From Camarhynchus parvulus (taxonomy: Eukaryota; Chordata; Aves; Passeriformes; Thraupidae), in the NCBI RefSeq assembly GCF_901933205.1, contig NC_044574.1, positions 2,296,501-2,360,500 on the forward strand: 64,000 bases of DNA, written 5' to 3'. Shown here piece after piece: positions 3,101-8,391 of the stretch (position 1 is its first letter; each line of letters starts with the position of its first letter). The notes beneath the pieces are model-generated. The model saw nothing but the letters and a program-made list of their open reading frames with translations, did no database searches and was not told where the DNA came from. Both the position numbers and the translations under genes were made by a program.

Positions 3101-6100
3101 GACCCCCGGCTCCCCAACACTCACCCCCCTTGTTCCTGAAGTACTCCGTGTCCTTCCACATCAGCGGGATGCGCAAATCTGGGGTGGAGGGAGCCAGGAG
3201 GGGGGTGAGACCCCCTGAGACACCCCCAACCCCCCCCACCCCAAATGCAGGGGGGGCAGGCAGGGAGGAGGGGGTTCCCCGTTCCCCAGAACCCCCCCGG
3301 GACCCCCCCCCATACCTGAGATGCAGACGGTGCCCCGGCACGGCACCGGCTCCGCCCCGGGCCCGCCCTCCGAGGGGCTGCGGGGGACGGCAGGGTCAGC
3401 AAAGGTCCCCACACATTTTGGGGGGCTCCCCTCCCATGTTTGGGGTGTCCCCTGTCACCACATCACCCTCACTGTGTGTCCCTCTGCATTGCCCCGTTCC
3501 ACACAAATTTCGGGGTGTCCCTCACTGTCTCAGCCCCCACAAGGGTCTCCCATCCCACCCCCCGGGTTTTGGGGTGTCCCTCAATGCCCTGTCCCCCCAG
3601 GTTTCGGGGTGTCCCTCACTGCCCTGTCCCCCCAGGATCTGGGGTTTTCCCTCACTGCTGTGTCCCCAGTGTTCCCCAAATTTTCGGGGTGTCCCTCACT
3701 GCCCTGTCCCCCATGTCCCCCCAGATTTCAGGGTGTCCCTCACTGCCATGTCCCCCATCCCCCCCAGATTTAGGGTGTCCCTCACTGCCGTGTCCCCCAT
3801 GTCCCCACAGGTTTTGGGGTGTCCCTCAGGTCCCTCCAGGTTTTGGGATGTCCCTCACTGCCCTGTCCCCGGTGTCCCCCCAGGTTTTGGGGTGCCCCTC
3901 ACTGCTGCAGACCCTCAGGGCCCCTCATCCCATCCCCTGGGTTTTAGGGCTCCCCTCACTGCAATGTCCCCGATGTCCCCCCAGGTTTTGGGGTACCCCC
4001 CACCACCTCACCCCCCATGGGATCCCCAAACCCCCTCCCTCAGTTTTAGGGCCCCCCCCCCCCAAAGGCTTTTAGGATTCCCCCGTGGTGTTTGTTCCCC
4101 ATTCCCCTCCCCTTTGGGGGTCCCACAGGGTGCCCTTTCCCCCTTGGGGTACCCCATTCCCTCGGGGCTGATTTTTGGGGTGTCTCACCGGCGGGCCCCC
4201 CTCAGCCGGGCCTCCTGGCGCCGCTGCAGCTCCCCCCCGGCCGCGACCACCCTGGCCTCGCACAGCACCAGGGTCTTGGTGGTCTCCAGCGCCTGCTCGG
4301 GCCGGCTGCAGGCGGGAGGAGGCCCGCGGCGACCCGCAGGCTCGCTCCAGCCTGCAGCTCCTCCAATGGAACTTAGGGGTCAGGGGGACCCCAAAACCCA
4401 TCCCACAACACCAGAGCCTGCTCCAGGGCCCGCTGCAGCTCCGGCTCCTGGGGATAGGAACATCTGGGGGGTCAGGGCACCCCAAAACACATCCCAAACC
4501 CCCAAATCCCTCCCTGACCCTCAGTGATTGCCCCAAGGCCCGCTGCAGCTCCAGCTCCTGGGGATGGGAACATTTGGGGTCAGGGGGACCCCAAAACACA
4601 TCCCCAAAACCCTTCCCACACCCACAGCACCCTCAGTGAATGCCCCAGGGCCTGCTGCAGCTCCGGCTCCTGGAAATGGAACATTGAGGGGTCAGGGGGA
4701 CCCCAAAACACATCCCACAACACCAGAGCCTGCTCCAGGGCCCGCTGCAGCTCCAGCTCCTGGGAATGGGAACATTTGGGGGGTCAGGGGTCCCCAAAAC
4801 ACATCCCAAACCCCAGAATCCCTCCCTGACCCACAGCGCCTGCTCCAGGGCCCGCTGCAGCTCCGGTTCCTGGGGGTGGGAACATTTGGGGTTAGGGGGA
4901 CCCCAAAACACAATCCCAAAACCCTTCCCACACCCACAGCACCCTCAGTGAATGCTCCAGGGCCCGCTGCAGCTCTGGCTCCTGGGGATGGGAACATTTT
5001 GGGGTCAGGGGGACCCCAAAACCCCCAAATCCCTCCCGGACCCGCAGTGCCTGCTCCAGGGCCCACTGCAGCTCCGGCTCCTGGGGATGGGAACATTTTG
5101 GTGTCAGGGGACCCCAAAACCCTTCCCACAACACCAGGGCTCGCTCCAGGGCCCAATGCAGCTCCGACTCCTGGGGACGGAACATTTGGTGTCAGGGGGT
5201 CCTCAAAACACATCCCACACCCCCAAATCCCTCCCAGACCCGCAGGGCCCGCTCCAGGGCCCGCTGCAGCTCTGCTTCCTGGGAATGGGAACATTTGGGG
5301 TTAGGGGGACCCCAAAACCCTTCCCACTACACCAGGGCTTGCTCCAGGGCCCGCTGCAGCTCCGGTTCCTGGGAACAAAACATTGGGGGGTCAGGGGATC
5401 CCCAAAACACATCCCCAGAACCTTTCCCACACCCACAGCACCCTCAGTGAATGCCCCAGGGCCCGCTGCAGCTCCGGCTCCTGGGGAAGAAACATTTCAG
5501 AGTCAGGGGGACTCCAAAACACGTCCCTAAAACCCCAAAATCCCTCCCAGACCCGCAGCGCCTGCTCCAGGGCCCACTGCAGCTCCGGCTCCTGGGGATG
5601 GGAATATTTGGGGGGTCAGGGCACCCCAAAACACATCCCACACGCACAGCACCCTCAGTGAACCCTCCAGGGCCCGCTGCAGCTCCAGTTCCTGGGAATG
5701 GGAACATTTGAGGTTAGGGGGACCCCAAAACACATCCCACACCCCAAAACCCTTCCCACACCCATAGAACACACTGCAGGGCCCGCTGCAGCTCCGGCTC
5801 CTGGGAATGGAACATTGGGGGTCAGGGGGACCCCAAAACCCTTCCCACAACACCAGGGCCCACTCCAGGGCCCGCTGCAGCTCCGCCTCCTGGGGATGGG
5901 AACATTTGGGGGGTCAGGGGGTCCCCAAAACACATCCCCAAACACACAGTGACTGCTCCAAGGCCCGCTGCAGCTCTGGCTCCTGGAGATGGGAGCATTT
6001 GGGGTCAGGGGCACCCCAAAACGCATCCCAAACCCCAGAATCCCTCCCTGACCCTCGGTGAATGCCCCAGGACCTGCTGCAGCTCCGGCTCCTGGTGATG

Positions 6101-8391: not shown

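Follow-up and report, generated by a model that had tools for sequence, protein, structure and literature searches.

Among the features of a 64,000-nucleotide stretch of the Camarhynchus parvulus genome (NC_044574.1, positions 2,296,501 to 2,360,500; hereafter the window), one raises the question of whether an exon edge repeated many times within its own intron serves as a series of small exons or is a minisatellite over which splicing passes. We found that intron 1 of RTKN contains, on the minus strand, 26 tandem copies of the end of the intron, the acceptor AG and the start of exon 2. An earlier interpretation made from the letters of the window alone (the sequence-only reading) had reported about 26 minus-strand copies at a period of about 98 bases over 2.5 kb, in good agreement with the 26 copies and mean spacing of 97.2 bases (range 71–112) determined here and with an independent recovery of the same array by TRF. 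Two hypotheses had been left standing: a decoy minisatellite that arose from an exon edge, or a multi-cassette exon giving a coiled coil of variable length.

The gene carrying the array is, judged by similarity of its predicted product, RTKN (rhotekin). When the window exons were joined using a guessed exon-2 edge, the resulting query matched annotated rhotekins, those of passerines best, with 97% identity to that of Agelaius phoeniceus over 92% of its length, and the same query, guessed stretch included, showed 96% identity to those of A. tricolor and Ammospiza nelsoni and 95% to that of Ammospiza maritima. The anillin-homology domain (PF08174) was detected on the joined exons with the exon-2 edge borrowed from relatives (8.2e-36). 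These rhotekin matches, together with the way in which the array runs into exon 2, bore out the sequence-only reading on both the identity of the gene and the exon-2 acceptor as the origin of the cassette. Three alternative first exons (8391–8308, 7990–7976 and 12186–12082) have counterparts in relatives that join EPELQ, and the coordinates of all exons are given in Table 1. Among neighbouring genes at 14000–54000, Pfam identified Glyco_hydro_63 (MOGS), a homeodomain, PAPA-1 (INO80B), CC142_N (CCDC142) and a RING match below cutoff. We take the homeodomain gene to be LBX2 and the RING-like piece to be PCGF1, and INO80B, MOGS, CCDC142, the homeobox gene and the RING-like piece presumably resemble the gene order of human 2p13.1.

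Table 1. Coordinates of the array and of RTKN features, numbered from the first base of the window.
Feature	Position	Strand	Details
Tandem array, 26 copies	4405..6890	minus	End of intron 1, AG and opening ~36–51 bases of exon 2; exonic parts start at 6877, 6806, 6727, 6649 ... 4447
Copy with best cassette donor	6611..6649	minus	39 nt; donor gtgagg; score 3.5, equal to that of the exon 1 donor
Last, degraded copy (5′ border of the real exon 2 in this assembly)	4314..4387	minus	8 gaps and 15 bases missing relative to copy 5278 (alignment); no phase-0 AG with pyrimidine tract
RTKN alternative first exon MYRRDERSRAAVAEGSALDMELRRGCCCPPAPAPQ (MYRRDER exon)	12082..12186	minus	tblastn with P0003 (Agelaius phoeniceus)
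RTKN first exon	8308..8391	minus	Same 28 residues in P0001, P0002, P0005 and P0032
Short alternative first exon MDEPE (probable)	7976..7990	minus	Donor gtaccg; Ammospiza nelsoni P0007 starts MEEPE, then EPELQ
RTKN exon 2, intact 3′ part	4189..4313	minus	Donor CCG/gtgaga (exon/intron); same residues in Agelaius phoeniceus P0003
RTKN exon 3	3316..3377	minus	
RTKN exon 4	3125..3178	minus	End set by scored donor; one base longer in the other exon reading
RTKN exon 5	2938..3055	minus	
RTKN exon 6	907..1134	minus	100% to P0003 (A. phoeniceus) over 76 residues
RTKN exon 7	139..233	minus	

Each repeat unit consists of approximately 36 bases of intron followed by the AG and by up to 51 bases from the beginning of the coding exon; the first exonic bases of the copies run from 6877 to 4447. 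TRF, which returned 231 rows for the whole window, recovered the array at 4368–6153 with a period of 312 and a score of 1704, with overlapping rows reaching to about 6853; the copy pattern is therefore not a product of chance. The AG is retained in every copy except 6447, which has GG, and the first copy (6877) has an AG without a pyrimidine tract. Copies 5278, 5080 and 4869 are the best preserved, each matching passerine exon 2 at 15 of 17 residues. The reading frame differs among copies, the spacing modulo 3 being mixed, and stop codons occur within 17 codons in five copies and within 13 codons in three. There is a clear polarity across the array: the match to the exon-2 peptide improves toward exon 2 (Spearman 0.57, P 0.002), and copies nearer exon 2 are also more like the remaining copies (Spearman 0.59, P 0.002), a pattern consistent with an array that grew out of the exon edge and left its older copies further upstream. 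A three-unit higher-order repeat, a candidate prompted by the 312-base TRF period, was not significant (lag-3 permutation P 0.10).

Tandem repeats detected by TRF cover 29% of the window versus 82% of RTKN intron 1, and the fractions for introns 2 to 6 are 0.49, 0.00 (a short intron), 0.65, 0.71 and 0.99, from which we conclude that the RTKN locus is repeat-prone. An Rfam search of the whole window gave no matches at gathering scores, and the open reading frame of the array gave only a UIM_2 match below the Pfam cutoff. Further long minisatellites, with 42-base and 31-base units, were noted at 13204–14376 and 15348–15956. Raw counts of quadruplex-type motifs, taken without a shuffle control, were 189 on the plus strand and 136 on the minus strand of the window, of which 13 and 17, respectively, lie within 4300–8400.

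The available part of Hron et al. 2026 (Genome Biol Evol, PMC12954441) describes, under the names exon stuttering and sequence stuttering, imperfect tandem repetition of an exon edge together with its splice site in the neighbouring intron of avian genes, the exonic part being tens of bases. In that account a lateral part of an exon is copied along with the donor or acceptor, alternative transcripts may result, introns differ in length between individuals, and repeat expansions are found in some instances in other birds. The chicken screen reported there recorded 236 introns, of which 190 are on dot chromosomes and 36 on macrochromosomes, with copy numbers of 1–44 and spans of 112–23,555 bp (PMC12954441). 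The RTKN array falls within both ranges, with its 26 copies over approximately 2.5 kb, and likewise lies in an intron heavily covered by tandem repeats (0.82); the copied part spans the exon border with the splice site, as shown by the AG of 25 copies. The criterion of that study was a BLASTn-short match between source exon and proximal intron with a length of at least 20 and a bit score of at least 42.1 (PMC12954441, available part); under it the window's own exon 2, which is broken in this assembly, gave no matches beyond itself when used as the query, whereas the edge of copy 5080 gave nine further matches. RTKN is present on single contigs of 74.5, 75.0, 77.8, 76.6, 73.3 and 73.1 Mb in six relatives (P0002, P0003, P0006, P0007, P0009 and P0032, respectively), and, in the other passerine records, on shorter contigs that have no bearing on the point. 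The chromosome concerned in passerines is presumably chromosome 4. Given these six contigs of 73–78 Mb, the RTKN array may be a macrochromosomal case, unlike the dot-chromosome majority of the chicken screen as given in the available part of PMC12954441, whose main text, to the extent available, does not mention RTKN.

The array runs directly into the real exon 2, whose intact part (4313–4189) adjoins the last copy and reaches LRGAR; the last, damaged copy is therefore the exon's own edge. This corrects the statement that no copy carries the complete exon, since the 3′ part lies intact immediately after the last copy, and the ACKLLAACS codons that had been expected are replaced in passerine rhotekins by ARRLLPACS. 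The exon-2 frame is open back to 4379. No usable phase-0 acceptor for exon 2 was found in the last 130 bases, where the sole phase-0 AG (before 4340) has no pyrimidine tract, and Pfam assigned no family to the exon-2 piece 4185–4379. Among 20 passerine-type rhotekins compared, 18 carry the 33-residue exon-2 edge exactly, and the two exceptions (P0016 and P0124) are models that absorbed array or pre-array sequence. An assembly error is the likelier cause of the break, because relatives keep the edge intact and because exons 1 and 3–7 read open here. We lean towards the view that poor assembly of GC-rich repeats produced the broken edge, and perhaps the exact copy number too, with the array really joining an intact exon, which would be compatible with exon stuttering; the available part of PMC12954441 itself cautions that introns of this kind are prone to artefacts and to high rates of error. 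Against this, the copies are imperfect and individually distinct, so that an assembler is unlikely to have invented them, and array-like sequence is implied in Rhodinocichla too. It is distinctly improbable that the break is real, in which case the array of this bird or haplotype would have eaten into the exon from which it came, at the cost of the true acceptor and of the first part of the Rho-binding helix, and RTKN would either splice through another acceptor, such as that of an array copy, or be losing function. The chicken cases differ from the assembled RTKN edge in having intact coding regions, with no repeat block seen crossing into an exon (PMC12954441, available part); a real break would be an exception to that pattern and would tie gene loss directly to the growth of a repeat.

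The codons of the cassette had been described as kept. In 23 of the copies (the three most 5′, 6877, 6806 and 6727, being left out) codons 1–8 are less diverged than intronic columns (0.076 versus 0.133 substitutions per site, with 0.091 for the last 17 intronic bases), but there is no coding signature: all 13 codons together show 0.140 substitutions per site against 0.133 over 34 intronic columns, and codons 9–13 are more diverged (0.249). The comparison of synonymous and non-synonymous change that the sequence-only reading had proposed was carried out on codons 1–8 of 22 copies, leaving out 6877, 6806 and 6727 (diverged after codon 5) and 6447 (indel), and gave no significant synonymous excess. 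Nine of 19 distinct changes were synonymous against 7.8 under the null (P 0.29), and when changes were counted over all copies the figures were 19 of 41 against 18.6 (P 0.51). Strong purifying selection was rejected on distinct changes, as an omega of 0.2 gives nine or fewer synonymous changes with P 0.004 and an omega of 0.3 with P 0.03, while weak constraint (omega 0.5, P 0.23 on distinct changes) is compatible with the data. Coding selection on the copies is thus not supported.

Splice sites were scored with vertebrate base frequencies as weights, and genuine RTKN sites were scored alongside. The acceptors of 24 copies (−0.6 to 5.2) overlap those of five genuine exons (0.7–3.7). A GT had been said to follow the 13th codon directly in most copies; it does so in 13 of the 26, and the word "most" holds if the seven copies with GT directly after codon 12 are pooled with these (20 copies). 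This, with the retained AG and the scarcity of stops within 13 codons, is what would favour several copies being spliced as phase-0 exons of 36–39 bases to give a Rho-binding coiled coil of variable length. The donors are weak, however: seven genuine RTKN donors (the MDEPE donor left out) score 0.9–5.3 on these weights, whereas cassette donors score −6.8 to 3.5 at 39 bases, with 10 of 13 below 1, and −5.8 to −1.4 at 36 bases. A GT within 75 bases that scores at least as high as the weakest genuine donor (0.9) is present in five copies only, the other 21 scoring lower. Three of the five have it at 39 bases (6649, 3.5; 6091, 1.0; 4557, 1.0) and two at 58 bases (5800 and 5278, 1.2 each), where splicing breaks the frame. 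Furthermore, 13 residues are not a whole number of heptads, and one insertion would therefore be expected to shift the register of the coiled coil.

Annotated proteins of relatives were compared using the best 120 of 602 matches, from a search that scored the 7993 candidates with the most words in common, and four more proteins, giving 124 homologues. The protein database was clustered at 90%, and minor isoforms could therefore be hidden in this set. With the pattern applied, exactly one exon-2 motif was found in 101 of the best 120, while the remaining 19, of which 18 come from lizards, snakes or parrots and one is P0016, lack it; no protein of the best 120 has two exon-2 motifs or more than one ELQRAL-like word. 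No second cassette was found under three patterns, the looser one being run on all 124 homologues and the others on the best 120. A tandem-cassette query (region 1–75) listed 21 proteins, 17 already known and four new, none of which by reading has two full cassettes, and a search with the translated array stretch 4892–5191 gave one candidate and no scored match. One record, P0008, on a 995-base contig, spans exons 1 to 7 and continues past them with no intron in between, apart from an odd C-terminus, and has exon 1 joined to one exon 2; the intron-free run suggests that it is transcript-derived. On the grounds of the missing synonymous excess, donors mostly below RTKN's own, and two cassettes in none of 124 homologues, the multi-cassette exon must be considered barely credible.

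Three automatic gene models bear on whether single copies are ever used. The start of Catharus P0016 is homologous to window sequence that immediately precedes copy 1 and extends into it (E 2e-17, single comparison). Corvus P0015 starts in a copy-1-like stretch and joins the EPELQ of exon 2 (eight residues shared, E 0.005), from which the donor of copy 1 may be used there if this automatic model is right. Rhodinocichla P0124 has 20 cassette-like residues before GARRLLPACS, the cassette being followed by a spacer-like GFWG (E 6e-05). These models suggest that array sequence exists in the three birds and, being automatic, are no proof of splicing; they also point to an annotation hazard, as they appear to include array or pre-array sequence. 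It is rather unlikely, though compatible with exon stuttering, that a small number of copies, perhaps a single one such as 6649 or the first copy (6877), enter transcripts at a low level or serve there as start-proximal exons, yielding minor isoforms or targets of decay. The donor of 6649, the Corvus and Rhodinocichla models and the mention of "potential alternatively spliced transcripts" in the available part of the chicken paper (PMC12954441) favour such leakage; on the other side, automatic models are easily misled by repeats, and the donor of copy 1 in the window scores only −1.9.

The array is thus very probably an intronic minisatellite of the exon-stuttering kind, and the hypothesis of a decoy born from an exon edge gained support from the 26 copies of the junction, the lack of a significant synonymous excess and the weak donors. 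In this scenario the RTKN intron 1/exon 2 junction (approximately 36 intronic bases, the AG and at most 51 exonic bases) would have undergone tandem duplication within intron 1 of an ancestral passerine. The observed polarity would then reflect growth and partial homogenisation of the array, through slippage, gene conversion or unequal exchange, the older copies lying toward exon 1. Since good donors follow few of the upstream acceptors, the splicing machinery would be predicted to pass those acceptors over and, by exon definition, to choose the acceptor that is followed by a full exon with a strong donor. With selection on the copies as exons unsupported and the upstream acceptors expected to be skipped, the most likely product of RTKN is an ordinary rhotekin that carries a single exon 2. 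Counting against this neutral reading are the low divergence of codons 1–8, cassette acceptors in RTKN's own range, the five fair donors, the Corvus model and a genuine exon-2 acceptor that is not recognisable in the assembly. With 25 AG acceptors lined up ahead of a single full exon, the locus would offer a natural test of exon definition. It would also extend exon stuttering, screened systematically in chicken, to a passerine gene that lies on a long contig in six relatives.

In 1995 Turri et al. reportedly described the human IFI6/G1P3 (6-16) minisatellite, which has a short unit, as providing multiple splice donor sites. According to the available part of PMC4526556, two of its repeat units were reported as used splice donors in transcripts. 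The RTKN array is similar in having splice-junction sequence in tandem, with many splice sites in a row, and differs in having acceptors rather than donors, a unit of approximately 97 bases rather than a short one, and copies that are only candidate splice sites where two IFI6/G1P3 units are reported as used (PMC4526556, available part). Among the best-matching titles of literature searches on RTKN or rhotekin with minisatellites, on minisatellites of bird microchromosomes, on RTKN with chicken chromosome 4 or 2p13, and on minisatellite acceptor sites, we found no account of the array.

Two further repeats adjoin RTKN splice sites. A 9-base array of about 74 copies at 11408–12078 begins just past the donor of the MYRRDER exon (12186–12082) and reads VREYREHRE in frame; a Lonchura model (P0122) reads through the donor of this exon into similar sequence. 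At the other end of the gene, the acceptor of exon 7 (exon start 233) ends a 9-base tandem array at 226–357 on the minus strand, and six more AGs lie 27, 36, 45, 54, 63 and 81 bases upstream of it. All six offsets are multiples of 9, and each AG would therefore add whole codons. Models from Nesospiza (P0036) and Piprites (P0019) read ...VPRCPRF there, as if spliced through another acceptor.
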